Shown: positions 28,101 to 61,100 of the stretch, piece by piece
Position numbering within the stretch: the stretch's first letter is position 1
Layout: each line of letters begins with the position of its first letter
Origin: Chaetoderma sp. LZ-2023a
Taxonomy: Eukaryota; Mollusca; Caudofoveata; Chaetodermatida; Chaetodermatidae
NCBI GenBank assembly: GCA_034401795.1
Contig: CM067369.1
Span: 185,259,047 to 185,323,046, forward strand
Direction of reading: 5' to 3'
DNA: 64,000 nt
Made by a program: the position numbers and the translations under genes
The notes under the pieces: model-generated
Told to the model about the DNA's origin: nothing
Seen by the model: the letters and a program-made list of their open reading frames with translations, nothing else
The model's database searches: none

Positions 28101-31100
28101 AAGTTTCAATCAAATTTGTTCAAACTAATTAAAAGCTTTATTATTTTGCCTCTCAGAGACAGGCGTTCTATTAACATGATTAATGCAGATGAGAAATGAT
28201 GAAACTGTCTATTGCATACAACATATGTGTATTAACAATTTAGTCCTGAAGCCATAATACTTCAGTTTCAAAGCAACCAATTGAAACTAATTTTGCTGCG
28301 AGATTGTACTGCCTACCACAATTTTCAGACAAATTTCTTTGAACGCATTTAAGACTACTTCTTATAGCATAAAGAATTTGATCTGCTTGGTGGAAACAGT
28401 TAAAGACAGCATTCTGTCATTGAAAGGATAAAGATAATATTCGATCATTGAAGGGTTAATTTAGACAACTTTCGATCCTTGATGTACTGTTAACGATAAC
28501 TTTCAATCATTGCTTTTTATCACCAACAGAGATAGGGCTTCAAGATTGGGCTCTTTCCATCATCATTTCCATCAACCGCTGCTTGTTTCTATCAATGGTT
28601 CCATTCATTACCATTTACTGGTCATTGGGCAGGAAAATAACGAAATTGCTTAGTGAATGTTCATTTGCTGTGCAAGAGAATAATATTTCTGAAACTTTAT
28701 CACTAGAATGACAGGCTCAGTTAATGAGTCATGGCTCAGTTTATGAGCCAGTCATTTAAGGGATAATATTTAAGAAATAGTCTTCTGTGGGCCTGCAAAT
28801 GGACATTCCTCAAGACCACGGCAGAAATTGTTTTGGTCAACTTGACCATTAAAAAGTTAATGTTATTTCAGGTTGCAATGACCGATAACGTTTTTAGCTA
28901 TTATTGTAGCAGCTCAATAAACCATCATGTGTCTTAGTTAGTTAGTTGATCCATCATGTCAATTTGTCAGTCAGTCACAAAAGCGTATTCCGGGCTATAT
29001 CTAAAAATCTACTGATCCTATTTGAGTCAGATCTTAACATAAGAAAGGAACTTGCCATGCATGCAAATGTCCAGATTTTGGCTGTGATCCAGAGAAAATA
29101 ACCTGGATCAGATCAAATTCTGGATCGTGGAAACTACTGGTCCGATTTCGCTCAAATGTTAACACGGGAAAAGGTGTGACCATACACCTAGGATTCCATG
29201 ACTTTGGGTGTGATCCGAACAACATCCAGATAATTTGGAACCTGCAGCTACTGAGATTCTATCGACTTTGTTTTTTTGTATTTTCAGAATTTGCTGGTCT
29301 AAAGGTGCTTAAGTCAAACACACCTCTTCACACCCAGCAAGCAGCTGTGAATGCTTTAATTGAGAGAATCTTACCAGGTCGCTCTAAAGAATTCTTCATC
29401 ACTATCAATCCTGCTATCGGTCCCGAATTTAAGGATACATTTGTGGTGAGGATTAGACACACTACCCTTTCAACACTGGATATGATGAATTCTTTTCAAT
29501 CTAAGAAATAATCGCTTGAATAATTATCCTCATGTTGTGATGATACCTGTATTGCAATTGCCTTTGTCTGGTTGTCCATCTGTCTATCCACCTATCTCCT
29601 CTGAAACTAATTGGTGGAATTCAATCAAATTCTTTTTTTGTAATTTACCAACATGATTGTCGATTGCAAGACTACATTTATATTTGTCTTCACCCCTTCA
29701 ACTTGGTGTGAGGTTGTGTCAAAGGATCAGCACTGGGGAAAGCATGGGGATTTGTGATGATGTGCCATCGACTGTGCATACTAATTTGAATTTATTTTGA
29801 CTAGCTATTATTATCTATGATTACCTTCAAGTTGGAATTGCATGGCTATATGTTTGCTACTAATAAAGATGGAGTGCTATCACTAATGTTAGCCATGTCT
29901 GACTGAGAATTGTTCACTTTAACCCTTTAGTGGTCAAGCCGGCCCAAAAATGCCCTCTGTAATGGTCTTGTGGAATGTCCATTTACAGGCCATGATAATA
30001 CAATTTTTGAGAATTTACCACTGGAATGACTGGCTCGATAACCGAGCCAGTCATTCCAGTGATAAATTTTTGAGAATTGTATTCTCTTGTCCTGTAAATG
30101 GACATTCAATAGGCAGCTATTTAAATTTTCTTGACCCGATTTGACCATTAAAGGGTTAATATGTAGCATTACCAGGTAAGCTGAAATTCTGATAAGCGAA
30201 ATGTGGCCTCGGTGAAAATATTAGATTTTTTAAATTATGAATATCCAGGCATACATGTACACATGTGTGATCGTTAAGATGTTTATGTTACTGTAATGAT
30301 GTTTATTTTGCAGCTGTCATCAAACTTTAGTTCTATACAGATTGTTGGTACAAGTGGAGTCGCAGCAGCATGGGGATTTCATCATTATCTCAAGTATATG
30401 TGTGGTTGTCAAATCACCTGGGGTGGTCGACAACTGAATGTCCCGAGCCCGCTTCCAAAAATCCCCACTCCAATGATTATGGAGTCAAATGACAGGTACA
30501 AACATTAGTCAGTTACTGTTTGTATGTCATTATTGTAATAATAGATAGACGGATGGATAGGTAGTTGGGTGGGTCCGTGAATGAATGGGTGGGTGGATGG
30601 ATGTATGTATGTATGGGCATATGGTTGTGTGGAAGCGTGGGTGAATTGATGGATGGGTGGATGGAGACTAATGTGTCATATTATATGTAAAACCTCTGCC
30701 AATATTAGCTCAATTGACTCTTGTGGTCCTCTCCTGCCCTCCCTCTTATGCACTGTTAAAAGTGCTTGAATTGATGAATCTGATCTGTCACTCAAGTTTA
30801 TGACTTCATAATCAATTACGTCACAGATAGGCTGATGTCATAATCAAGACATGTAATGAATGACATATCTAAGTCTGTCATGAACGCTTAATAGTCTGTC
30901 AAGTGTACTAATTGTATGTCTGCTATTTAATAAACATTCTGTTGAATATTTTGAAAATAATTCAACTGGGCACTGTTGCTGCAATAGGTTAGTTAGTTTC
31001 AAAATATTCAACAGCTTACCTGTATAGTTACCTTGATATTGGGATTCTAGGAATTCATGGTTCGATCCATCCCAACACTCGCAAAGTGTGGGCGGAGCTT

Positions 31101-34100
31101 AGATAGAAATGGGCGGGGCATAGCTAAAAGTGTATTCATCCAGTTGCACGTCCCTTGATGTTATGTACCCTGATATGGCACCTTAGCTTTCTCGCATTTA
31201 TTCTCATAGGTTCAGGTATTATGAGAATGTATGTACAGTGAGCTATTCATTTGCCTGGCATAACTGGACACATTGGCAGCAGGAAATTGACTGGATGGTA
31301 ATGAATGGTATCAACTTACCGCTTGCATTCACAGGCCAGGAAGCCATCTTTAGAAAGGTAGAGAACAACATTTTGAAATCAATGTTTTGAAACTCATAAT
31401 TCTATTTTTCCTCAGTAGTAAGGTGCAAACCCTAAACAGTGAAACATGTTTATGTTTGTTTCCGAGTCAGGTGACATGTTGCCGTGACAGAAGACTATTA
31501 GTCTTTAGCCTTTCGATATGTTGCTATCTAATTAGAACATAGGGAAAGTAGAAAAAAAATTTTAAATCAAGGTTTTGGAAATCTGAATTTTATTTCTCCT
31601 ACATAAGGTGCAAATCCTAAAAAAATTTGTTTTCAGAGTCAGGAGGTGATTAGCCTTTCACATATGTTACCATCTAATTAGTATGTGTTAGATGGAATAA
31701 GAAATCAATCATGAATACAAAATGAATTTAAACATATACATAATTTAAAGAAATTAGATTAGCTATGATATTTGTTATTTTCATTTTTGATTTTGTTCAG
31801 TGTTGAAATTCAAATTGTCATGTTCTCAGTTTTACCATGGTTCACCACAAACACACATGATAGAATATTCTCTATAGGCTTTGCACAACTATTCAATTAT
31901 TCACGATTATTAGCTCGACTTTACGAAGTAAAACGAGCTATTGCGATACCCTGTACGTTGTCCGGCGGTGGTGGTGGCGGCGGCGGCATCCAATTTGCGT
32001 TTAGCTCAACTTTTCTATTTATATCTCATGTATGCTTAATCATACAGGACACAAACTTGGGCACATGCTTCCTTATAATGATACAGCATCTCACGATGAC
32101 CTTCAGAGCATCTATTCAGAATTTTAATGGTCCGTTCTTTTTGGTGAAAATCATAAATTTTATGAAAAATTTATCGGAAATTGTCAAGATGCATCATCTC
32201 CATAGCCACTTGGTGGATTTTATCCAAATTTGGCTGCAAAGATTCTGTAGTGGTAGGCTCTAAAACTTCAATTCACAATTTTGGTTGGTCAATTTTTTGG
32301 TGGCCATTTGGATTTTTTTTAAACTTTCCAGAACCATTTAAAACGCTACCCCTTAATTAGTTGGCCAATTTCAACGAAACTTGGGTGGAATGATCCTAGG
32401 CGTCAACATATCAAACGAGAATTTTGATTGGGCAATTTCTTTGGTGGCCGTCTTGGATTTGTTTTTTTAATTATCCATCATGTCTACCGGCAAATGGTTC
32501 AAATCCCAATGTTCCAGGTTAGCATTACACGCCCTTGGGCCTCTTGTTGATAAGACCTATATTTATTTATTAGTCAAGCTTAGTTCATTGCAAAGTTATA
32601 AATTGCAATCACATTCCTTTTTTTAAATATGATAGTGGACGATCACAAAACCAAATAATCAAAGATTTTCAATTTCCAAGATAGGTGTTTTTAGCTCACC
32701 TGGCCTGAGTCCGTCCGTCCATCAACTTTTCCTTTAAAACGACTTCTTCTCAAGAACCACTGGGTCGATTTCAATTATATTTGGCAGGAAGCATCCCTAG
32801 GGCATAGAGATTCAGGTTTGTTCAAACGAAGCCGATCGGCCAAAATCCAAAATGGCCAATTTTTAGAAACACTAAAAAATCTTCTCCGAAACCACTGGAG
32901 GAATTGATTCAAAACTCATAACACATCATCTATTGCAATGGTAGACCAAAGTTTGTTCAAGGCAACCTGATTGGACTATTTGCGTGGTGGCCATCTTGGA
33001 TGACCTAGTTTTCGCGAAAATTACTTCTCCCGAACCGCTGAAGGGATAGGTCTGAAATTTGGTAAATATGCTTAGGGACCAAGGTCCATTCAACTTTGTT
33101 CAAGGGAAGTTTGTACGTTAAAAACATGGCCACCATCAACCAATCAAAATTTAGCGTTTGTTGATCATATTGGCTTATTTGTATTTGATGTATTTTGTTG
33201 GCAAAAATCGATATATATATATATATATATATATGCTTACCAGTGTGGCGAGTTCAAATATGCCACTTTCGCGACTATCGGATAAACGGTTTGGCTGCCA
33301 TCTTGGTTTGTTTTCCCACCATAGGCTCCCATAGTAAAGCAATGGGCCCATAGTAAAGGAATGGGGAATTCTTTAAACGACCTCTTCTCAAGAACCACTG
33401 GGCCAATTTCAATTATATTTTGGAGGAAGCATTTATAGGGCATAGAGATATAACTTTGTTCAAACGAAGCGGGTCAGTCAAAATCCAAGATGGCCATCTG
33501 CCAAAATGGCTGATTTTTAGTAACACTTTAAAAAATATCTGAAACCGCTGGAGGAATTGATTCAACCCTCATAACACGTCATCTGTGGCAACGGTAGACC
33601 CAAGTTTGTTCACGGCAACCTGATTGGCCGATTTGCTTGGTGGCCATCTTGGATGACCTAGTTTTTGCGAAGACTACTTCTCCCGAACAGCTGAAGGGAT
33701 AGAGCTGAAATTTTGTAAATATGCTTAGGGACCAAGCGCCTTTCAAGTTTGTTCAAGGGACATTTGTTCGTTAAAAAAAATGGCCGCCATCAACCAATCA
33801 AAATTCAGCATTTCTTGGTCATATTGGCTTTTTTGTATTTGATGTATTTTGTGGCGAGTTCAAATATGCCACTTTCGAGACTGTCGGTTAAATGGTTTGA
33901 CTGCCATCTTGGTTTGTTTTCTCGGCATATGCTCCCATAGTAAAGCAATGGGCCCCATAGTAAAGCAATGGGGAATTCTTTAAACGACTTCTCAAGAACC
34001 ACTGGGACGATTTCAATTATATTTGGGAGGAAGCATTCATAGGGCATAGAGATCTAATTTTCTTCAAATGAAGCCGATCGGCCAATTTGGCCGCCGGCCA

Positions 34101-37100
34101 TCTTGGCCGCCAGCCATCTTGGCTTTAGGCCGATTTTAGGAAACGTTTTTAAAAATCTCCGAAACTGCTTGGGGGATTGATGCAAACCTCATGAAATATG
34201 ATTTATGGCAAGGGAACTTGATTGGTCAAATGGTTCGGCGGCCATCTTGGTTGACCTAGTTGTAGCAAAAATTACTTATTCTCCAGAAGCGCTGAAGGGA
34301 TCGGGCCGAAATTTGGCGGATATGATTAGGGCCTAAGGGCCATTAAAGTTTGTTCAAGAGAAGTTGATCCATCAAAAAACATTGCCGCCGTGGGCCAATC
34401 AAAATATAGCATGTTTGGTGGCCATATTGGATTTTTTTATTTGATGGATTTTGAGGCCGAAATTCGTTTTATATGTGTTTTGGGTATTCTGATCTCAAAT
34501 TTGCAATTTTCGAAACCATCGGATAAACGTTTTGGTGGCCATCATGTTGATAAAGAGCATTCTAGTTGAAATGCCTATTGTCCAGGTGAGCGATACAGGC
34601 CCCTTGGGCCTCTTGTTCATATATAAAGTCGGCTTACATTTACTGTGATACTAACCCAAGTGAATATGAAAATTATTTTTCAATACTACATTATATCTAT
34701 TTTACTTATTTTGTGACTTGCTTTGATGAAAGAATACATTAAAATGTTTTCCAGTTTTCGGGTCATTCAACCCAATGCCATTTTGCCCAGGACAATAATA
34801 ATTTCGACAGAATATCAATTCTTTAAACTAAACATTTTCGTTAATCATAAAATATTGGACAATACAGATTTGTTGTAATTATTTTAGTTAATAGCATCTA
34901 TGTTTGAGCAACATCTGGACACGCCTTGGAAAACCACAGTGGTGCAGTGCCACACTTTATAAACCACTGCATCACGTGTAGCTAAATGTTCATCTTGGGA
35001 TGTTTTAGAGTCCTAGTAAAAATAATTATCTCTTGGTTGCAAATGGTCATTAGATGAGAAGATCTATAAAGTTTCTTAACCAACTGTCCATTATTAAGTT
35101 AACTGTCTGCCTGCTGAATTTCTGCAGACAACATTTTCCATGGAGTTTACTCTGGACCTGTTGAATATTTTTAAAACCATTTGACTGAAAGTTGTTTGTA
35201 GCTAAGCCACCAATGACTTTCAGGCAAATTGTCTTTAAAATATTATGCAAGTCCATAGTTATTGCCCATTTAAATTATTGTCTGGTGACCTATAACAGCG
35301 AGACAGGTAAGATCAACTTTACCTTCTCGTCGGAATACTCATAATATCTACATATTTCAATTTATGCATATTTCAGGTCTACATAAAATTGGGCTTCAAT
35401 GACACTGATCTTGCAGCACATTTTGGTGGGCCAGCATTTCTTGCATGGTAAGTATATCTGTACTCAGAGTGAAGGTTGGCTCGAGTTCACGATCAAAATA
35501 GCCAGCCACGTGATGTCTCTGAAACCAGGAAACCCTCTAGACATAATGTAATAGTAAATGTTCAGGTTAGAATTTATAATGGTGTTATCTTAGCTTTGGA
35601 ACACTGGCATTCCAGTATTGCAATTTCAAAAGGTAATTCACCTTTCCAGAGTACCCACCCATTATATGACGTCATAATGAACTGCGTGGTGTGCACAATG
35701 ACATCATAATGAATGACGTCGATAAGTACGTCACGAACGCATATTTGATGACGGTCCATGGGCTGTTGTACAAATTGCTTGCTTTTACTATTTAATAAAT
35801 ATTCTGTTGAATATTTTGAAACTAATTTGACTGGGCGCTGTTGCTGCCTATGGCAGCAACAGCACCCAGTCTAATTAGTTACAAAATATTCAACAGCTTC
35901 CCTGTATAGTTTTCAGGAAATTGATAGCTAGGGCATTCGGGGATCGATCAATCCAAACACGGCGAGGTGTGGGTGGAGCTTATCTAGTGATGGGCGGGGC
36001 ATAGCTAAAAATGGAAAGGTCCATTGCATTCGGGTCTGTGTTTGTATGTCTGCACATATTTATGTCTATCTCAGTGACAACAGATGTGATTTGGCTAAAA
36101 TTTAACACAAGAAAGGTTATTAATGTAAGGAAGTAGATTTAAATCTATTTCTTATCTTTAACTTAACTGCAGTTGTCCCCTGTTCTTAAAAATGAAGTCC
36201 TAGTATATCAATTTCAAGGAACTCGTGAGAAACATTTTTGAAAATTCTGAAAATAATTTGATTGGAATCTGTTTCTGCCTTTTATAAATAACAGCTTCTA
36301 GTCAAATTATTTACAAAATTTCCAACGAAATAGTAGCTGATTGCCATTTTGAGCCAATTTGATCAATTGATCTATTATAATAGCATTACCCCGTTAATGG
36401 TCATGCTGGCTCAAACCAGCCTCTGTAATGGTCCTCGTAAATGTCCATTTGCAGGCAAAGAACTTATTTTTAATTTACTAATATAATAACTGGCTCGATT
36501 ATGAGCCAGCCATTCCAGTGTTAAACTTTCATATGTAAGCTTCTCTTGACCTGCGATATATATTCACTAACAAATATAATGTATGTATCTTGCATTTCAG
36601 GGCACGTATGGGAAACATGCGAGGATGGGGTGGCCCATTACCCTTGAACTGGATGAATGAGCAACTCGCGCTTCAGCATCAAATTCTTACTGAAATGCGT
36701 TCATTCGGAATGATTCCAGTTTTACCTGGATTCGCTGGACATGTCCCTAATTCTATCTCCAGGTGATAATATTAATCTGTATGATTACCTTTGTTGGTCG
36801 TCAATGCCAATGTTTATAGCGAACCTTAAAATTGGCTAACCGTTTAATGGTCAAGGCCGGCAGAAATGGGTTCTGCAGTGGGCATGAAAAATTTCCATTT
36901 GCATGCCAAGAGAAGGCTATTTCTGAAAATGTGGGGCTAGAATGACTGGTTCAATAACATGTCCAGCCATTCTTGTTGTAAATTTTCCAAAATACCCTCT
37001 TGGCATGTAAATGGCCGTTCATTAAGTAAAAATTTAGCTTTTCATGATCAATCTGACCCTTAAATGATTAAGATTTATAGTGCTTGAATTCAGAATGTTT

Positions 37101-40100
37101 TTGTCAATGGCCTTGGTATTAACAAATAGACTTAAAATGCTTAAATTTTGCTTTAAAAAATCTCTAAATACATATGCTGTATATCTGCACAAAACCTTTA
37201 TTGTTAAAAGTATGTATTAAGATCATAATGACTGACCTTTTAACCCTTTAACGGCTAAATGTGGTCAAGAATATCAAAATATTTGATTATTGAATTGATT
37301 TGATTATTTGCAGATCAAGAGAAGACTATTTTTGAAAAATTACCACTGGAATGGTAGATTTTCAAAAAAATAGTCTTCTCTTAGTCCACAAATGGAACAT
37401 AGCTTAAGACCTACTGCAGAGGTCATTTTTGCCGGCTTCATCGTGTAAAGGTTAATGGACAAGATTTAAGAAAAATAAAACATTTTGATTAATGAATATT
37501 CATTTGCAGGCCACAGAGATCGTCATTTAGTCATAACTTGCAAATTAAAAGTCTACTTAGTGTATAGTGATACTTTAGATATAATTCTTTTCCATGAAGT
37601 AAAATATATAATTATAATTTATAATTAACGTTTTAGCTGGAAATTGTTTTCAGGGTTTTTCCTAAAGCACATGTTACGCGTTTGAAGGACTGGGGCAGAT
37701 TTAATAGGACATACTGTTGGTAAGGAGGGTCAGACAGTCAAATGGCAATCATTCTAATATGGTTGATATTGCATGCTTGTTTTACTCTGCCTTGCATGTT
37801 TTGTTTGATATGTTGTTTTTGCATTGCATGTTGCATCCCAGATTAATCTTATTTTAACTAATTACGGATATTACAATCGGTACATTCAGGGTCAGGCATG
37901 GATTTTGCATGCCATTAGCCAATAGAATATCCATCAACACTATATTGGTCATATTTTACTTATTTTATCAAATGCTTTTAAATGTTTAAAATCGGTCAAT
38001 GCCATTTAACCCTTTCAACAAAGAACTAAACAGGTGCAAGATTATGTTGAATATTTTAAAACTAATTTCCATAGAAGCTGTTGCTGCCTTCTTCCAGTCA
38101 AATTAGTTTCAAAGTATACAACAACTTACCTATATGTAGGTGGTCAAAATTCGAGCTATTCAGATTTCATGGTTGAACAGCTTAATTTGGTCAGAATAAT
38201 AACAAGTGTATGGTTACGGTGAAGCTCAGAAATAACTTAACACATTTCCAAAACAAAATAAAACGTACTCTTGAATATTTTGAACATTATTGGATTAGAT
38301 TAAGGCAGCAATGTCTTCCAATCCAGTTATGTTCAGAATTTTCAACAGAACATTTTTTACTAGCTACGGTACCATAACATGTTTTTGTTTTGGGAACATG
38401 TTAGCATATTTATGAGTGGTACTGTACACTGCTATTAACTCTAACCCTCGAATTTGTTCAAAAAGATTTAAATTTTCCCCTGATAAAAGTCCATTTGCAG
38501 AGCAAGAGGTTATTTTTTTTAATTTACCACGGGAATGACTGGCTCGGTTATCGAGCCAGTCATTCCAGTGGTAAATTTTAAAAAATAACCTCTTGCTCTG
38601 CAAATGATCATTTTCTCCAGACTACCGCAGAAACCGTTTTTGGCTGATATGTGTTATGGTTAAGATGTCTTCACTAGTTAATTCGCCTGAAATTCAATTT
38701 TCAAGTCATTTGGCTAATGGCTATAGGTCAGTCCCTGAGAGTAACTGTTACTTTGCATATATTAAGCATGCACTCTAACATTTTACTATACTGCCTGCTA
38801 TTTTAGAGGCTCGCACTACGGGGGTAAGGCGCGTGTACCACGATTTATGTATGTCAGGATTTAACAACAATCATGTGAATAAACGGTGGTGGTCCCTTAC
38901 ATACACATGCAGAACTCTATATATCATATGCATAAACAAAGATTTTTAAACACCCAAAATATTTAATAGGCAAGTTTTGAATTGAATTTCTGAAAAATTG
39001 AAATTTACCATAGGGTGTGTGTTGTGTTTCATTTGTCCTCTCACTCATTAAAAAAGATGTGAAGTTTAACAATTTGTTTTTGAAGAAATTTTGCCATATA
39101 TTAGTAATCAATGCCCATCATACCCCATTCTATTTTTGTCATATGCCCTTCTATGTAGTTAACCCTCAAATTTGTTGAAGAAAATTTCAGTTTTCTCATA
39201 GAAACTGTCCATTTGCAGCCCACGGGAAGACTATTATTGGTTATTGAGCCAGTCATTCCAGTGGTAAATTTTCAAAAGTATTCTGCTTTGGTCTGCAAAT
39301 GGACATTTCTTCAGACCACTGCAGAAGCCGTTTTTGGCTGATATAAGTGTTAAAAGGTTAATAACCACATTTTTACACCTTAAGATCCGTATTATAGAAT
39401 CCAAGACGTCGTGCGAAGGTAATTAAAAAAATCATGTACTAGTAAAATATACAATTCTATAATTTCTCTGAATATGTCAATGGTTCCTGTTGTAAGCTTT
39501 TTATCTGATAAGACTAGAGTTGCAATTTCAGAGTGTACCCTGCAGCAATTGTGTGGCGTCTGGGTGATTGGGGTGGATTTAATAGAACCTACTGTTGGTA
39601 AGGATAATGCTACTATTGCACTGATGCTTACTCAATATTCACTCAGTTGTAATTAGCGACGCTCACAGCCCCCATCCACCTGACACCCTGCTTACCATAC
39701 CCATATCTATTCACAATAAAGCCCATATTCTATAGCATATATCTACAAATCAAATCAAATATGTTGCTTTCAGAGTATTTCCTTCAGCTGTTGTGCGGCA
39801 CATGAGTGACTGGTGTGGCTTTAATAAAACATTTTGTTGGTAAGATGGTATTATCACAGTGGTGTTTTCCGTGATGGTTTGGTAGATATTATTGTTTATT
39901 AAGTTTGTTTTTTGAACACCTAGTGTTTGTTGACTGAGTACAACTCATAAATATCTTAACATGGTTCCAAAACAAAATAAAACATACTGTGGAATATTTT
40001 GAACATTATTGAATTGGAAGACATTACTGCCTTCGTTCTGCAATTTCTTCCAATCCAATAATGTTCAAAATGTTCAACAGAACATTTCTCACATTGTGTT

Positions 40101-49100: not shown

Positions 49101-52100
49101 AGCCCTTTAACATGTTGTATGGCAAAATTTGCTGAAGAAAATCAAAATATTTGCTTATTGAATGTTTATTTGCAGGCTCAGAGAAGACTATTTTTTAACT
49201 AAATTTTCAAAAATAGTATTCTCTTCGCCTGCAAATGTACATTCCTCAAGATCACTGCAGAGGCTGGTTTAGGCCGACTTCAACATAAAAGAGAAAAAAA
49301 TAGTAAGTGAAAATGGACAGGTGGTCGCTTGATACAGGTGGTTTTAGCTATAGGATATTTCTCATGGAGCTCAATGGAGGGATTCGATCTGTCACTCAAG
49401 TATTTGACGTCATAATCAATTACATCACTAGTTCGCTGATGTCACAATCAAATTGCGTAAACCACTCCGTCATGAAGATTGAGAAGTCTGTTATGAAGTG
49501 TACGAATTGTATATCTGATGGATTTACAATTTAATAAACACTCTGGTAAATATTTTGAAACTAATTAGACTAGGAGTTGTTGCTGCCACAGGGAGCAACA
49601 GTACCCACTCAAATTAGTATCAAAATATTTAACAGCTTAGCTGTATAGTTACGTAGAAATATTCTGAAAGCAGCTATAAACTGCACTATGGGACGAGTTT
49701 ATGCCGTTGCATTCATACCTACTCAAAGCTACCGTCCTATGTATATGGATTGCGCAGTATCTCCCCGGGTACTAATATCAGCATCTTCAAGTTACTCCGG
49801 TAATGACCTAAATTCGTCCTACAAAGGGAGGCTATAAGCGGAAGCTGATATGTTCTGTAATTTATATTTATTTCTCGGCGACATTTTATCTCAAATTTTG
49901 ATGAAATAAATAATGTTTATTAAACTATACGCAATATTTAGGCGGTCCCAAGTAATAATTTCACTCCCGGGATGATGGATATAAGGTATACATTAAGCAT
50001 AGATGTAGGAGGGTAAGAATTCGTCGAATGAAAATGTGTTCTAATTTCGTGCTATTTTTGTATCATTTATTTCAATTTTTTCTAGAAACAAGTCACGTTA
50101 CCCCGGTTTATACTTTTGGGAATTTGGTCCTACGATTTAATCGAAAATCAGAATTTTTTTATAAAATCGAACATGATGTTTCAAAGCAAAAATCGTGCAA
50201 GCCTATCCTCAGCCAGAGTCCTTAGCTACCGAAAGTTCTTCTTGGTCCTCAGACAGGCAGGCAGGTCAAAATCATTGAAAAGCTTTCTGAATATGTGTAA
50301 TGATAACTCTCTACCAATGTGATCTTGTTTGTTGCCCTTGGGGTCACGAAGAACTGTATTGTTAGCTCACTTGGCCTGAAAGGCCAATTGAGCTTATGCC
50401 ATGGTAACCGTTCATCTTCCGTCCATCAACTTTTCCTTTAAATGATTTCTTCTCAAGAACTGTGGGGCCAATTTCAATTATACTTGGCAGGAAGCATCCA
50501 TGGGCTATAGGGATGCAAGTTTGTTCAAACTAAGACAATCAGCCAATTTGGCTGGCTGCCATCATGGATTTTGGCCAATTTTTAGAAACGTCTTTAAAAG
50601 TATAATCTGAAACCGCTTGGGGATCCATGCAAACCTCATGAAATATGATCTATGGCAAGAACTGAACAAAGTTTGTTCACGGGAACTTGATTTGCCAAAT
50701 GGTTTAAGGCCATCTTGGATGACCTAGTTTTTGCGAAAATGACTTCTCCAGAACCGCTTAACTGATCGGGCCGAAATTTGGCTGATGCGATTAGAAACTA
50801 CGGGTCATTAGAGTATGTTCAAGGGAAGTTGATCCATAAAAAAATGTCCACCATGAACCAATCAAAATGTAGGCCATATTTGATATTTTTATTTGATGGA
50901 TTTTGAAGCCGAAATTTGTTTAATATTCTGATTTCAAACTTGCCACGTTCGAAACTGTTGGCTGAACGGGTTGGCTGCCATCTTGGATCTTTTTCCGCCG
51001 AAAAGTCCCATACTAAAACAATGGCTAATTAAGAACTACTGGGCCGATTTCAAGTATATTTGGCAGTAAGGTTCCTTAGGCCAAAGGGATCCACATATGT
51101 TCAAAGGGAGCTGATCGGCCAGGCGGACATATTTGATTTTGGCTGATTTTTAGAAACGTCTAAAAATCTCTGAAATCCCTTTGGGGATCGATTCAAAACT
51201 GATGAAGCATTATTTGGAGCAACAGGAAAACCAAATTTGTTCGAGGGAACTTGATTGGCCAAATCCTTCAGTGGCCATCTTGTATGACCTAGTTTTTGCG
51301 AAAATGACCTCCAGAACCGCTGAACATATTCATTATTGGGCCAAAATTTGGGAGATATTAGAGCCTAAACACCATTAAAGATTGTCCATGGAAAGTTCAT
51401 ACATAAAAAAACCATGACCACCATGAATCAATCAAAATTTAGCATTTTTGGCAGACATCTGGTATTGTCTGCAACTTTTTGAGAAAATCATAAAAAGACT
51501 ACTTATTAAGCACTGGGCGAATATTAATAAAACTTGGCTAAACCTTCTTCACAGAAATTAGATTGGTAAATTTTTTTCAGTGATCATCTCGTTTTGTTTG
51601 TTTGTGCCAGTGGCCAATAATTCCAGGTGAGCAATACAGGCCCATTGGGCCTCTTGTTTATAAGTTCAACCCCATTTCTCATAACCTCGATAATCAATCA
51701 CATGTTTAGTTTCATTTTTTTCAGCACATATTTACTGGATTTTGCAGACCCATTGTTTAACAAAATCGGCGGTATGTTTATTGAGGAGGTAAGCTTATCT
51801 GATTCCTGTACATATTATTTAGCCTTATGTATTCCTTATGTGGTTTAAATAATTCTGATTATTTTGAAAACCGTTTGGCTGATTTCTGTCTGAAAGTGAA
51901 TTTACATTGGACTGAAAGCGAATTTACATTGGACACAGTGTGACTTGATGTCACTGTTCAAATTATTATGTCAAATTTGCCAAAACTGACATTTGCAGTG
52001 GTTTTTGTCCATTCTCAGGCGAAGAGATGATCTTTGAAAATGTATCGCTGAAACGCCTTGCTCGATACCTGAGCCAGTGCTTCTAGTGATAAACTTTTGA

Positions 52101-55100
52101 AAATGCTCTTCTCATGACCTGCAAATTGGCATATATTTATTAAGCAATAATTTGGACTTTCTTTGAGTAAAATGTATAGTACAGGACACCTAAAAAATAA
52201 GTTAACATCTTTCGAAAACAAAAACATGTTAGTACAATTTTGAACACAATGTAAGAAATGTTACAGTGAATATTTTGAATATAAGTGGATTGGAAGACAT
52301 TGCTGCCTTATGCACCAATGTCTGCCAATCCAATTGTGTTCAAATATTCATCTGTATGTACTAAGATAATTCTGAGGTGTACTATAGCATCCATCATGGA
52401 AAAATGATGAGCAAGTAGTAGAAGTGTTTAATAGTAAATCATTATCCCCACGTTTTAAAAAAACGTCCGTGTCCGTCCGTCACGCTATCTCCTCCCAAAC
52501 CGTTGGATGGAATTCAACCAAATTTGGTATGTGGGTTACCCATATAATTCAGTTTTGCACGATGATATTTACATTTGGCTCCACCCCAGGGTGCCGGTCA
52601 GGGGTCAAAAGGTCAAATCACTTGTAAAGCAACTTGTGAAACCATTAGACGGAACTCAACCAAATTTGATATGTGAGTTACCCATATGATTCCGAAGTGC
52701 AAGAGGCCATTTACATTTGGCTCCGCCCCCAGGGAGTGGGGATGGGGTCAAAACGTCAAATTTTAACCTGCAGAAATTGATTGTAACGCATCTCCGAAAC
52801 CATTGAACATAATTCAGCCCCTCCCCCCCCCCCCCTCCCCCGTGGTGTGTGGGTGTGTGCGTGGGTGTTGCTTGGGGATGCAGTCAAAAGGTAAAAAAAT
52901 TGATCGTAATGCAACTCCTCCGAAACCGTGAGATGGAACTCAACCAAATTTGATAGGTGAGTTGTCCATATGGTTGTGGAGTGCAAGAGGCCATTTATAT
53001 TTGGCCCTGCCCCCTTTTGGGTGGAGGATGGGGCAACTCCTCCGAAACTGTTTGACGGAATTCAACCAAATTTGGTATGTGAGTTACCCATATGATTGTG
53101 GAGTGCAAAAGGACATTTACGTTTGGTTCTGACCCCGATCAATCTAGTTTAATGGTTGAAATTAGTCAAGAGAAGTATTTGTGGTTTTTTGCTTAGTTCA
53201 TGTTGATTTACAGGCTGATTTTGACAATTTAACACTGGAATGCCTTATCAGTTATCAAGTCATTCATTCCACAGGTAAATTTCCAAACAGAGTCATCTCT
53301 TGCCCAGAAATGCATTTCTCAAGACCACTGAAGAAGCTGTTTTGTTTCCCAATTTAACCATTGAATGGTAAAAATGAGCCATCCACTCACGCCACCTCGC
53401 GTGTACTTTTGCCTTATGGCAGAAACAAGTTTCAACTATTTTTAAAACTATTTAGCTGGTCGAATAATACGTATGAAATGTTTTTTGAATAAAAAAACCT
53501 GAATGGAATAATACAGGACTGTTAACATACTACTGGAAACGGAGCAAGCAGTCCGGTGCACAGTTCTGAAACTATGGACAGATCCACGAGCCCACCCAAG
53601 CATTGATGCATTGAAGGCACAGTTCAGCCCATACAGAGGACGCAGAAGAGAAGGCCAGAGAAGACCAACAGAAGAAACGAGTTTCCCACTATATGCGACA
53701 AAGTCCAGAAAAACTAAAACTGAGACGCGGAACAGTCTTCAATCTGTTGAAACAGTTTGAATGCTAATTGTCAAACAATCAACACTTTTTAAACTATAAG
53801 AATAATATCAATCAAACATCTTGCGAAAGAGATCTCTCTGAAATCTGTTATGTCAAAAACCTATCTGAGAAAAACCTGTCAGACTGTTGTACATGTACTG
53901 TCACTAGTGCTGGGATTCAGCCTCACTGTGATCGAATAAAACATGGGCAGAGAAAGCTAACACACACATTAGCTGATGACAAATGTATTGTTCTCAAAAA
54001 GGCTGATAAAGGACAGGCATATTAAATGCCTATGATTATAATGCTGAAGCTACTATAAATTGGTCACAGAAAACCTTACTACAAAGCACGCTGAAAAGGT
54101 AGAAACAGCCATCACAGGGCTAGTTTTAAAATAGTTTTAAAAGGGGAGATAACTAGCGACTGTTAATGGCCTATGGGTAGACAACCAATGCACAGAGCTA
54201 TTCTATCTTTTGCCGAAAATCCACAAACAAACTACATGAACACTGGGTAGACCAATTATTAGCAGAAACGGCTGCTCTACATAAGCAGTTTTATCGATAA
54301 ACATCTTAAAATTCATCTACCAATTATCACATCATATGTCAGGGACACCACTGCATCAATAAACTAGAAACATTCAGAAAATTACCAAGGCATACGATTC
54401 TAGTCACCATAGATGTTACATCTCTATACACCAACATCGCACACAGTAAGGGAATTAAAGCTGCCGCACAATGTATCAGAGAATTTGCCAATTTGGTATG
54501 TCGGGCGATCTCTTTTAGACCTGTCTATGCCGGACAATCTCTTTTAGACCTGTCATTGTATGCCGAGCGATCTCTTTTAGACCTATTGTCTATAGTATTG
54601 AGATGTAATAATTGTGAATTTAATGACAAACAATATCTCCAAATCAGAGGAACGGCAATGGGCACAAAAGTAGCACCAACATAGGCTATATTTATGGCCC
54701 AACTGGAGAAAAAGTTAGTTCTTAAGAGTGCCTCATAAACCGACCCTCTAATTCCAATACATCGACGATATCTATATGATTTGGACAACTGGTCAACAAA
54801 AACTATATGAATTCATCAACTATCTGAGTACGTCGCACCATTCCATCAAATTTATGGCCGAGCAATCCACAACTAAAGTCTGTTTCTTGGACTCTTATGT
54901 ATACATTGATACTGACCACTCTATCTGCTTTGACTTAAACAGTAAACCTACACACACATGGGTATCTACATTACCAATCAGCACACCCACATAGAGCTGT
55001 TCGATTATGGAAATAAATAATCGATTATGATGTCTGGAAATTAATCGACTTAATCGGATAATTGATTATTTAATCTTGGAACTGTGGAAGTAGCAAATGC

Positions 55101-58100
55101 GCAGTGAGGGAGGGAGAGAATAATAATAATAATAATAATATTAATAACAAATAAATAAATAAAATATTTTCCAGAAAAATAACTGAATATGCAATTTCGT
55201 AAATTGGATCCTAGTTAGGTTTCGATGACCTCAACTAAGTGGGCCTATGAAATTACCGCAAGACTCAATAGAATGATCTATATCAACGAGTCCTCTGGTT
55301 GGCTGAAAGTGAGTAACAACACTGCCCGGTATGGTGAAGTCAATTTGGAATCCATTGTCCACTCGTTTCATTGGAAAATGGTTTTTAAGAAATCAGCGAT
55401 TATGCAAGATTTTCAAGCCAATAAAATGGCGCCAATTTAATTTTAACATTAGATTAACTTTGAATTGTACAGAGCTCGGCCGTAGCGCCTATCTACAATA
55501 TTTCCCTATTTTCCAGCATTGGAAAAGCTGAATATTTTGAAAATCATTTGACTGCATGTTGTTGCTGCCTTAGACAGCAACAACTTTAGGTTAAATTAGT
55601 TCCAAAACAATCAGCAGAATTTATGAAAAATTGTTCTCGAAAATTTGTGAATTTATTACGAAAAACAGGAAGTAAATTTTATTGATTTTGTATTATGATA
55701 TACATTTCGCTCATAGTCCCTATATCTATGATGTTGCCAAGCTTTTCCAGCATTAGAAACGTCAAATATTTTGAGAATCATTTGACTGCAAGTTGTTGCT
55801 GCTTTAGGCAGCAACAGATTTAAGTCAAACTAATCGCAAAACAATCGGCAGAATTTGTGAAGATTTGCATCAAAATTTTGTGAATTTACTATGAAAAACA
55901 GTAATTAATTTTTTACATTTTTCCACAAAATGGCTACCAGCACCAGTCTATAGTCTTCAGAGGTGGATAATTTTCTATAAACAGTAACAATCAAATGTTT
56001 CCAATCACCGGCGTATCAAGGGATAAACATTCGCGTGCATGGACAATGACTCGGGAGGTGTGGCCTTGAACGTCAGGAATAAATGTCTGTACATTTACTA
56101 CCTTGTTAGGACAATCAAGCCACCGATGCATTAGCTGTATCACAAAACTAAACACTAAATTATGCCTGATTAAAATAAATAATCGATTTTTGCTCGATTA
56201 AATCGATTTTTGATTTTTCGATTATTTTATTTTACACTCGATTATATAATCATCAGGAAAAATAATCAACTATCGATGAAATATCTATTAACCGAACAGG
56301 CCTACACCCACAGTTTACCAAAGATTCCAGCCCATATGGACAACTCCTAAGGCTACCCAGAATCTGCAGCAAGGAAATAGATTTCCATAAACACACCCAT
56401 GAACTCATTGGCTATTATCAAGAGAGACTCCTCCCGAGCTTCTTCTAAACAGTTATAAGAAAGCTTGCACATGTTCAAGACATGATCTACTCACATTGAA
56501 AGGACTTTAAGCGCAAAGTTATAAAGCAAGAGAAATTATCCAAAAGAATTGGGAACTACTAGAAAGCAGTCCCTACCCAACCGATGTTTGGCTATAGAAC
56601 GAATCCTACTTTCAAAGACACGCTCGTCACAGCTAAATTAGAGCTTCCTGCCACTAGAGGTTTCCAAGAAAGAACCTTCCAAAACCTTATATGTCCATGC
56701 ACAAGAAAATATAGCTTTTTCTGTCACAATATGGATAGTAAACCTGAATTCACTAGCGCTTACTCTGGCTTAAAATATAGATGTACAGTTAAGACACATA
56801 CTATGATACACGCAATGTCATATACTTGCTCTCATGCACACAATGTCACAAATTGTATGTGGAGGAAACAAACCGGGAATTCCAGAAAGAACATCTTAGG
56901 GATATCAAAAACACACAAGGATATGCCTGTGCCTAAATATTTAATTTGCCCAATCATACTGGACAAAACGTGTCCTATAACATTATACAAGTTCTCTCTC
57001 ATGACTGAGGACACTGACAAAACTCGCATCAGAAAAGAAGAACAGTATTGGATACACCAACTACACACGTTAGGGATTAACCATGCAGATTGGTGATTCC
57101 AAGGCAAAATCTGAGTTGTTGTTTTTAATTTGATTGGGAGCTGACCTGTCGATGGCAGCAACAACTCGCAGTCAAATAATTTTCTAAATACCCAACAGAA
57201 TGGTTATTAATTTGTAAATTAATAAAAGACATACAATTAAGATGCTTTCATGACAGACTATTGTCAGTCTGGCCCACATTCCCGATGGACTTACATCATT
57301 TTGATTGTCATGTCAGGTAAGAAGTGACATATTTTTATTTTGATGTCAGATACTTGAGTGACAGATTGAATCCCTCTTAGCCCTTGTATATGTGTATACA
57401 TAGTAGCCAGTCTAAAAACATGAAAAGACTGAATTTGTGACATGTGTATTTATACGTATAGACTTATTAATAACTAAAACTACATGTGTGCTTGCATAAA
57501 TTATCATGTGCATTTGTGCCAGTTTCTAAATATTAAACGATAATATCTGTTTTTCAGTTGATTGCTGAGTTTGGTACAAACCATATTTACAATGCTGATA
57601 CGTTTAATGAGATGAGGCCATTATCAAGGTACGTCGGGTGTAAATCTTATTTCAAACTATGTTTGAGTATATGTTTATTAGTAAGGTATCAGTATATGTA
57701 TCTATGTAACCCTTTCACCCTTACCACTCTGGTGTCAACATTTTTATTTTTCAAATTAAAGTAAAAGATGAACTAGTGTTTATTTTTCAACAAATTTGGT
57801 GGAAGATACCAAAAGTGTTGAAAAATGCACTAGTTTCTTTGCTATTGACAACGTAAAAGATAAAATATTGACATCAGTGTGCTAAGGGTTAATGGTGAAG
57901 CCGGACAAAACTGACCTCTGCAATGGTCAATAACTGGGATTTAATTCAGGATATGCTGAAATTTTTGAAAACAATTTGACTGAAAGTTGTTGGTGTGTTC
58001 GCCATTATAATATGAAAATAGGCATTGCCTATAAGCGAATGCAGACACCATTTATTGCTTAAATAAACAGGATGAATTTGTATAGGGTCGAAACGTCCTA

Positions 58101-61100
58101 ACTACGTATGCCCATGTATAGTACATTTGAAGCTAATTTTTCGCCATGCTTGGAGAGTAGTCTGATAAATCCAGTCCACAATATTCACAATAATGCGTCT
58201 GCCCATAGTCAGTGATATCCACCAACATTAGTGCATCTTTTCCCTCCAGGGCCTACACCATTAATATTTGCACCAGTCCAATAATGTTATAAAATTTGTA
58301 CCAACGTATAACGGTGCGCCTCGCTATTTGGGGAAATACAAACAAGTTCATAGTAACTATGACGTCATAATGAAATGTTGTCCGCTAGAATTTTTAAATT
58401 GTGTTTATCCGGACATATGCTACAAAAAACGGGAGTTAATGCATGTCTGCGAGTACATACATGAATGTACATTCCATCCGGGTGTGAATGGCATGCTACC
58501 CGGCCTTAAATTTCCTGCTATCAGCACTAAATGCTTACGACTGACAACGACGACTTTCCACGGCCGTGTGTGTTAAAAATAATATGAGAGTCAACCAAAC
58601 CTCATATTGCATTTACAGACGCATAAATAGGAATAAATGTAGCTTTTATCTGGTCTGCTTCATACAATTTAATCATTTTACATTCCGAAGTAAATGTATG
58701 CTATTTCATGATAACAATATTAGACAAATTTTGGACATTGAAAAGGCACAGTAAGTTTCCCTAAAACAACTAGGGGAACATACGCATAATGAATAACCAT
58801 ATCCCATAATGCACTGGGAGGCCCATGAAGAAACCACAAAAGCTATATCATAAGCCGAAACCGGAACCAAAAAAATAGTTCGCGACCTGAAATGAAGCTT
58901 TCTTTGTCTCATTGTATATGTATTTTAGCCTGGCTCCCTGTCTCATTTCTGTTGATTTTTCCTCTACACATACATACATGTTATCTATATACGCTCACTT
59001 CGTACGCTATTAAGCCTATCCAGAGTTAAATCTCATGGAATATGCAGTCTGCAGAAATTCAGCAGCCTGGCAGTTAATCAATAATACTCTGTTTTGGCAA
59101 TATAATTATAGCTTTCTGTTTCCCTGTATTTTTCTTAGCAATTTGTCATACATTGCTGCTGCTGGACGGAGTGTGTTTGAAGCTATGACCACTGGTGATG
59201 CAGATGCAGTGTGGTAAGTGCGATAAACGTGATAAACACCTTGCACGAAACATCTTACAGAAATAGCAATAATAACAGGATCCATTTTTAGCTATACTCC
59301 GCCCACTTTCTAGGTGTGTTTAATGATCCCTGAATTTCTACATCCCAATTTTAAGATATCCAATACCAACCATACAGGTAAGCTGTTGGATATTTTGAAA
59401 CAAATTTGACTGCTCACAACAGCTCGCAATAAGATTTGTTTCATAATATTCAAGATAATGCTTATTAATCGTAAATTCACCCATTGAGAATTTTGGGTTT
59501 GAATTTGGGCATACCCAAATATCCAACAAACACAACAGATTTTTGGCTGATTTGACGAGGCAGTGATTCCATATTTTTCAAAGGGTCCTCTCTGGACCTG
59601 AAAATGGAGCACTGCAGAGGATGGTTTTGGCTGGCTTGGCCATTAAAATGCTAAATTCGTTGGACTTAGATCATGGGTCCATAAAAAAATCATGTAGGTA
59701 CTCAACTACAGTACCAACAGAGGGAACTGATATGCTTCATAGAGACTATAAAACCTTATGCGGAAAGGGACAAGGTATTTTTTCAATTTATTACTGATGC
59801 CAGTCATAGCATATCTCTTATCTGGAGCATTTAAAGAAACCAATTTCACCTTGGTTGCAAATTGTTATTTTCATCAATAAAAAGGAAACCAGTAACAGGT
59901 TTTTGATAGTTCATTATTTTGTTCTTATATCTTCCTCATATGAACTAAGAAGATAAGTTCACTATTTTAAGATAGTAGCTCAGAATGGAGGGATCTGATA
60001 TGTCACTCAAGTATATGATTTTGTAATCAAATACTTCACATGTTAGCTGATATCACAATCAATATGACGTAAAATACAGAAAGTGAAATGTTCATCATAA
60101 AAGTCTGCGAATGTCTTTGATGAATTTCTGGTTCAGTAAGCCTTCTGTTGAATATTTTGAAACTAATCTGATAGGGAGCCATTGCTGCCATTGGCAGCAG
60201 CATCCCTAGTCATATTCATTTAGAATATTCAACAGCTTACCTGACAGTGTATAGTTACCTTGAAATTTGGAATTCTGAAAATTCAGGGTAACATATATAA
60301 ATCGATTCTATCACACGTACAATGTGAGCGGGGCTTAACTAGAAATGGGCGGGGCATAGGTAGAAATGGAGCCCTCTATTATCTGTTAACTGTGTATATT
60401 CATGCTGTTAGGTTGATGCAAGGATGGTTATTCCTCGATTCAGGATTTTGGAAACCGCCTGTTGTTGAAGCTCTTGTCACAGCTGTGCCACAGGTATGTT
60501 AAGTGTGTTTGGGTTAGCATGTGTGCATGCATGCTGATACATGTCTTAGTAGAAGACCCTGTCATAGGTTCCGTGATCAGTGTTTTGGGGCATTTGTTTT
60601 TTAAATGGTTTTCATGTCTCTAAGTGAGTTGTGTATCTCCCTCAAAAGTTTACGCAAATGGCCCAAGCCTGGAAATAGGGTGCCTGTCATGGCCATTGTC
60701 AGGTACCAGACTATCAAATGTCAGGCACAGTATTGGCGGTTCTTGACATTTTGTCAGGTACAGATTTAAACAGTCGCAGTAGTTGCACTGTGCAACAAAA
60801 GAGTGCATACAAGTGTTGACAAAGCCATAAAATATTCATCTACCTAAGGTGTATCACGATCATTATGACACATGTTTAGTTGCTTTTTGACATGTTTCAA
60901 AAAGTTTAAATAAAGTACACTGCGAAGGAGAAGTGTTGACAGTCAGGAAATTCTGGATGTCTAATACTAAGTAGCTGGTGCCCGACAAAGTGTTGGACAC
61001 AGTTGAAAAAGTTATTTCCAGGCCTGATGGCCTATGGTAATATTGTCAGGAGCCAACACCTACAATATGTAAGGAGCCAAAACCTACAGCCGGCAGAGGA

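Follow-up and report, generated by a model that had tools for sequence, protein, structure and literature searches.

Two clusters of three tandem exons in the NAGLU gene of Chaetoderma sp., probably mutually exclusive and placed at the substrate cleft of a GH89 enzyme

The NAGLU gene and its duplicated exons

The DNA analysed, called the window below, is a stretch of 64,000 nucleotides on chromosome 11 of Chaetoderma sp. (C11:185259047-185323046), from an assembly of 2,438,752,110 bases in 2,753 contigs. The window carries the NAGLU gene, encoding the GH89 alpha-N-acetylglucosaminidase. Five NAGLU exon matches on two chromosomes passed the Pfam cut-off, four of them in the window gene. The product, over the length read, matched human NAGLU (PDB 4XWH) with an E value of 3.6e-215 and bacterial GH89 (2VC9) with 1e-87, and the positions of Glu316 and Glu446 are kept in the alignment to 4XWH. 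A tree of 49 NAGLU proteins placed the Chaetoderma protein beside that of the chiton Liolophura (support 85/91), outside bivalves and gastropods, which agrees with a caudofoveate mollusc. Human numbering was taken as the 4XWH chain position plus 23, and 4XWH spans residues 24-743 according to the available text of PMC13207710. The numbering checked itself: a tryptophan falls at 268 and the human His at 270, which are residues named in the docking paper (PMC12938346). The exons of the gene are as follows.

29288..29445, + strand: NAGLU exon E1, the first exon seen (exons farther upstream were not sought)
30314..30495, + strand: NAGLU exon E2
31210..31357, + strand: NAGLU exon E3
35377..35447, + strand: NAGLU exon E4
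36601..36762, + strand: constitutive exon 5' of cluster 1, with AG of a split Arg codon as its last bases, found once in 93,954 nt
37654..37719, + strand: cluster-1 alternative exon A (66 nt, phase 2/2), profile score 58.9
39532..39597, + strand: cluster-1 alternative exon b (66 nt), beginning with A, profile score 50.0
39774..39839, + strand: cluster-1 alternative exon c (66 nt), beginning with A, profile score 46.4
51725..51788, + strand: constitutive exon 3' of cluster 1, beginning with C (TG/C = Cys), single copy in 93,954 nt
57558..57628, + strand: exon with DTFNEM, counterpart of catalytic Glu316 (alignment to human)
59139..59213, + strand: NAGLU exon E9
60412..60493, + strand: NAGLU exon E10
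62597..62746, + strand: NAGLU exon E11
63978..64000, + strand: start of NAGLU exon E12, which continues 120 bases past the window end
C11:185324548-185324620: NAGLU exon E13, outside the window
C11:185328080-185328166 (L007:5080-5166): cluster-2 exon 2a, 87 nt, phase 0, AG/GT
C11:185333877-185333972 (L008:877-972): cluster-2 exon 2b, 96 nt, phase 0, AG/GT
C11:185336068-185336166 (L008:3068-3166): cluster-2 exon 2c, 99 nt, phase 0, AG/GT
From C11:185337943: NAGLU exon E15, outside the window

All 15 other NAGLU exons searched matched only themselves at E 0.05 in the 93,954 nt, so that two places of the gene are duplicated. Decayed partial copies of NAGLU exons 2-4, with stops, are found elsewhere in the assembly at L011:8655-8835, L004 and L006 (chromosome 3, contig C2044). 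The intron 51788-57558 holds broken reading frames at 54310-57093 that resemble those of Penelope-like elements, with a likely GIY-type endonuclease beside a likely reverse transcriptase (YIDD). Contig C18, over 4.6 Mb long, has two COX1 genes without stops (L023, L024), which perhaps come from a bacterial symbiont in the assembly.

Exons A, b and c of cluster 1 are indeed three 66-nt exons with good AG/GT sites, as the initial annotation had proposed, and all three positions were borne out. Each is preceded by TTTCAG, ends at TTG/GTAAG and has phase 2 at both ends; the first codon of exon A is split with 36761-36762. Any of the three joins in frame to 36601-36762 on one side and to 51725-51788 on the other, also as claimed. 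Residue identity agreed with the earlier counts (15/21 for A and b, 11/21 for A and c, 11/21 for b and c, with the shared first Arg left out), and is 16/22, 12/22 and 12/22 when this Arg is included. The segment had been placed at about human residues 257-277; the location is right, and the exact span in the 4XWH alignment is 255-276. It does not lie right before the exon of the catalytic Glu, because exon 51725-51788 comes between it and the Glu316 exon (DTFNE) at 57558-57628.

At the DNA level, A and b share 46 of 66 bases, A and c 43 of 66, and b and c 48 of 66. Differences at first, second and third codon positions were 6/5/8, 6/7/9 and 6/4/8 in the three pairs, and a strong third-position excess is absent, a point against the mutually exclusive reading. 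In 11 of 12 comparisons among A, b and c, the flanking intron sequences were no more alike than shuffled ones, so that the copies are old exons amid unrelated flanks. When sequences related to exon c were sought by a region search, a single candidate came up, without a match. An AT-rich element of 23-25 nt is common to the 5' flanks of A (37598-37620) and b (39441-39465), with a score reached by 0 of 300 shuffles; there is none upstream of c and none elsewhere in the window. It is a duplication relic or a splicing element.

Cluster 2 sits beyond the window end, between E13 and E15, and corresponds to human residues 499-528, with copies of 29-33 residues. Profile scores are 38.9 for 2a, 21.0 for 2b and 27.4 for 2c. 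Among 2,000 mutants of each copy at 30% divergence, none reached the score of its own parent, and the lowest real score (2b, 21.0) was reached by 12/2,000 mutants of 2a, 0/2,000 of 2b and 3/2,000 of 2c. A fourth cluster-2 copy was not found, the best of 3,154 windows outside exons scoring 4.3 against 21.0-38.9 for the real copies. All nine combinations of A, b or c with 2a, 2b or 2c are open across E1-E15.

Constraint on the copies and the junction stop

A residue profile was made from 96 distinct gapless segments (99 distinct segments with three gapped ones removed) of the 120 homologues listed. The family segments score 29.6-76.1 bits with a median of 58.9, and all three Chaetoderma copies fall in this range. 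Neutral mutants at the observed divergence had mean scores of -6.8 to -22.0 bits in six comparisons, and matched the real profile score in only 0-3 per 100,000 trials. Residue identity is a weaker measure than the profile score and does not separate b from c: A/b identity is above neutral (equalled in 0.013%-0.014% of trials), A/c weakly above it (2-3%), and b/c within the neutral range (28-35%). These scores indicate that the conserved thing is the family pattern, not the likeness of b and c. In a six-frame profile scan of the 93,954 nt, nothing above 5 bits was found except A, b and c.

All three copies of cluster 1 end in TG, and both b and c have A as their first base. TGA is therefore created at the junction whenever two copies are joined (A-b, A-c, b-c), while one copy followed by exon 51725 gives TGC (Cys), and skipping of A, b and c gives AGC (Ser) with the frame open. 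It follows from the TGA at each double join that at most one copy is usable in a productive mRNA, though 66 is divisible by three. The initial annotation overlooked that TG/A makes TGA, which closes all three two-copy series. Cluster 2 has phase 0 and no such lock: its double joins stay open and a junction stop is absent.

Decay policing is said not to apply to multiple-of-three exons in the available text of PMC6071210, where the decay-policed class requires exons that are not a multiple of three. The exons of 66 nt do not have this property, and with the stop arising at the junction instead, cluster 1 would work like the decay-policed class but is no member by its definition. The junction-split stop is a way round the multiple-of-three limit, and it shows how decay could police exons of such length. 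Stops at exon-exon junctions have been described after the skipping of essential exons (PMC11062102, available text). The split codon encodes Arg (AG/A or AG/G), for which both later copies would start with A in about one of four cases; we do not claim selection of the lock, and it may have arisen by chance.

Isoforms in bivalves and the origin of the clusters

In the homologue search, the 8,000 candidates with the most words in common with the query were scored, 5,057 proteins were found and the best 120 were listed. At the segment of cluster 1, isoforms predicted for one gene differ from each other in three Mytilus species and in Ostrea edulis. Among the matches listed, the five isoforms of M. 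californianus form 10 pairs, all of which have their differences confined to 259-278 and 500-531; the four of M. trossulus differ only at the two segments (6/6 pairs), and the four of M. galloprovincialis at the matching two places (6/6 pairs); the single pair from O. edulis differs only at 262-280, the first segment. One M. galloprovincialis contig of 39,289 bases has seven proteins, for which the 15 pairs without P0065 differ only at both segments; P0065 has further differences at its ends. For segment 1, M. californianus has three versions among the matches listed, for segment 2 it has four, and Crassostrea P0027 and P0023 there each resemble one of the two Ostrea versions.

Most of these bivalve isoforms are predictions. 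P0028, with 780 aa, carries non-canonical versions of both segments, and its source contigs (<=2,817 bases) are too short for the unspliced gene, so it is presumably a spliced transcript. P0096 (M. galloprovincialis X7) is a predicted isoform without segment 1, and P0094 and P0095 (M. coruscus) have part of one segment version fused to another. Several segment-2 versions in series were carried by five of the 120 listed models.

Two versions in series: Ruditapes P0005, Haliotis asinina P0006, Mercenaria P0014, Nucella P0044
Three versions in series: Pinctada P0020

We read the serial models as alternative exons strung together by annotation, which can occur wherever a junction stop is lacking; joint use is the less likely reading. 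Six same-species pairs (Haliotis, Patella, Mercenaria, Babylonia, Argopecten, Aplysia) differ along the whole protein and were taken as separate genes. Argopecten irradians has two NAGLU proteins (P0017/P0061) in which the 22-residue segments differ like alternative copies (DWAGF vs DWGHF), and the sequences would fit gene duplication, possibly in place of exon choice. A second search with oyster P0027 gave 1,873 matches, and the best 120 listed held 19 new proteins, of which seven were examined and none was decisive. Gryllus P0121 without the segment and Solemya P0126 with an unusual segment start are odd models.

Scores alone, among the matches listed, make 2b most similar to oyster versions P0036 and P0027, 2c to Lingula P0090, and 2a to the short cephalopod and annelid versions P0075 and P0064. 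This suggests that cluster 2 predates the split of the mollusc classes. Exon A shares 16/22 residues with the canonical Mytilus version and is closest to a hemichordate among the matches listed, so A is simply canonical. For cluster 1, a similarity comparison of the Mytilus, Ostrea and Chaetoderma copies gave no settled one-to-one orthologues.

Cluster 1 could have arisen independently in Chaetoderma and in bivalves, as argued for mrp-1 in the available text of PMC7434440; this concerns origin and not function, and we consider it only slightly short of an even proposition. Exons b and c are without a clear partner among bivalve versions, and among the 120 listed proteins those of gastropods, cephalopods and chitons show no alternative for segment 1, though the database merges near-identical proteins and missing isoforms are weak evidence. 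The equal position, phase and length of cluster 1 in both lineages speak against separate origins, and so do the cluster-2 copies, which look like distinct older types.

A more far-reaching reading, which we put forward tentatively and with more doubt than belief, is that the last common ancestor of shell-bearing and aculiferan molluscs already had the combinatorial swap of two exon clusters for the active-site cleft of a lysosomal glycosidase. This swap would provide a set of GH89 enzymes with different glycan preferences, with a split stop codon and not a frame shift enforcing the choice in cluster 1. If this is true, one gene gives nine GH89 enzymes here, and in M. californianus their number may be as high as 3 x 4.

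Exon choice and the substrate cleft

The features of both places are those of mutually exclusive exons. Clusters of this kind, as described in the available text of PMC3228551 and PMC5740500, consist like those of NAGLU of homologous tandem exons with similar length, phase and splice sites. By the marks given in PMC3228551, copy lengths are 66/66/66 and 87/96/99 nt, splice sites and frame are compatible with one phase per cluster and no in-frame stop, and the encoded segments are homologous by residue identity and profile scores. Validation by reads, according to PMC5740500 (available text), consists of reads joining each copy to the flanks and no two-copy reads unless they carry a premature stop.

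We are highly confident that Chaetoderma NAGLU has two mutually exclusive exon clusters, with three copies each, which vary the substrate cleft of this GH89 enzyme; the exclusive use of exons in this animal is what we infer from the sequence. The initial annotation had taken the first place for a set of mutually exclusive exons within the catalytic domain, and this is still the best reading in view of the sequence features, the junction stop and the Mytilus and Ostrea isoforms that differ there. One copy of each cluster would enter each mRNA, giving up to nine enzyme variants. Cluster 1 would swap 22 residues (human 255-276) and cluster 2 29-33 residues (human 499-528), and Trp268, Glu316 and Glu446 would be unchanged in all isoforms. 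The reading frame would police the choice in cluster 1, as double use would bring in TGA and the transcript would presumably be lost by nonsense-mediated decay. The choice in cluster 2 would go without such policing.

The TGA at every double junction would also be expected if A alone makes the enzyme, and b and c are regulatory (poison exons beside A, leading to decay) or on the way out. Exon A does have the best family fit (58.9 vs 50.0 and 46.4). However, b and c keep the family pattern, a protein constraint that is needless for a poison exon, each is open when used alone, and non-canonical versions occur in full-length isoform models of Mytilus and Ostrea, so that we regard this as unlikely. 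Still less probable is a loose choice in which skipping of all three exons is common and exclusivity comes solely from the destruction of double products. Skipping keeps the frame (AGC), and the predicted isoform P0096 is without the segment, but skipping deletes Trp268, which is invariant in 96/96 segments from the 120 listed homologues, and the product would hardly work. An assembly artefact or unmerged haplotypes might be thought of because partial NAGLU copies exist elsewhere in the assembly, and can practically be dismissed, as A, b and c differ at 18-23 of 66 bases, their flanks are unrelated as noted above, and no cluster-1 exon was found in the 13 loci fetched around those partial copies.

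Both variable segments hold residues of the substrate pocket. Docking of heparan sulphate on 4XWH named contacts to GlcNAc at Cys136, Tyr140, Trp201, Met204, Trp268, Phe410 and Ala508, and further at Trp649, Ile655, Tyr658, His270, Asn315, Glu316 and Glu446 (PMC12938346, available text). Of these, segment 1 contains Trp268 and His270, and segment 2 contains Ala508. Another docking study (PMC13207710, available text) names Arg514, Arg519, Asn526 and Asp657, the first three of which fall in segment 2. The cleft lies, according to the same source, between domains II (127-465) and III (466-743), which places segment 1 in domain II and segment 2 in domain III. All these contacts were computed by docking and not taken from a complex. 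The earlier proposal of different barrel loops can be sharpened to the docked contacts 268 and 270. In a structure model of the Mytilus isoform P0031 (mean pLDDT 85.9), the variable stretches 258-279 and 500-531 are mostly loop, with confidence below that of their surroundings (61 for 271-280, 73-74 for 501-520).

At position 270, Chaetoderma has Arg in A and Gly in b and c, with the following codons.

37697-37699, + strand: human-270 codon in exon A, AGA (Arg)
39575-39577, + strand: human-270 codon in exon b, GGA (Gly)
39817-39819, + strand: human-270 codon in exon c, GGC (Gly)

Among the matches listed, the successive Mytilus versions have Arg, then either Asp or Gly, and lastly Gly at this position, with the exception of Arg in P0028, and Ostrea has His and Ser. 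Since both segments hold pocket residues, the isoforms most likely differ in binding the sugar beside the cleaved GlcNAc. They would vary in which sugar is tolerated there, whether in differently sulphated heparan sulphate or in other glycans with alpha-GlcNAc. Whether substrate specificity is altered in this way we judge to be evenly balanced, on the basis of modelled contacts. The copies would offer natural variants at positions important for human NAGLU (268, 270, 508), and the prediction is that one mollusc gene serves several alpha-GlcNAc glycans.

Mutually exclusive exons are well known as a kind, and coq-2 of helminths, annelids and molluscs is a close parallel (PMC7434440, available text). 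Its exons 6a/6e are, like those of NAGLU, homologous and mutually exclusive, and they change the enzyme product. In coq-2 there is one cluster of two in a polyprenyltransferase, shown by mutants and RNA-seq, whereas NAGLU has two clusters of three in a glycosidase and is known from sequence. Clusters in general exclude double use through a frame shift, and 60% of human clusters have exons not divisible by three (PMC3228551, PMC5740500, available text); in contrast, cluster 1 of NAGLU has multiple-of-three exons locked by a split stop codon. Human NAGLU (4XWH) and bacterial GH89 (2VC9) belong to the same family, but each solved chain has one version per segment. The initial annotation knew of no description for a GH89 enzyme, and we likewise found no alternative NAGLU exons described in the literature searched, judged by titles and the opening lines of abstracts, with most subscription journals and preprints lying outside it. 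The combined swapping of two substrate-cleft parts in one hydrolase is undescribed for GH89 in that literature. Public databases already contain the Mytilus and Ostrea isoform sequences, though the pattern seems undescribed.

Exon 6 of Dscam also has tandem copies from which one is chosen at a time, in a gene with several clusters as in NAGLU, and uses pairing of a docking site with selectors (PMC6071210, available text). In NAGLU, by contrast, the only pairings seen in such a comparison are of dispersed repeats found window-wide, from which a docking/selector arrangement did not stand out. Exon A could be looped out by pairing of repeats in the intron between the 5' constitutive exon and A (36837-37051, 37306-37396) with their copies in the intron between A and b (38454-38613, 39208-39360). 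This first family is short and palindromic, with 16 matches at 22633-62471, mostly in introns of the NAGLU gene, and for this window-wide number the pairing was treated as background. A second repeat family, by pairing of 38261-38423 with 39937-40087, could put b and c in a loop; its members were located at 38277-38339, 39996-40071 and 52272.
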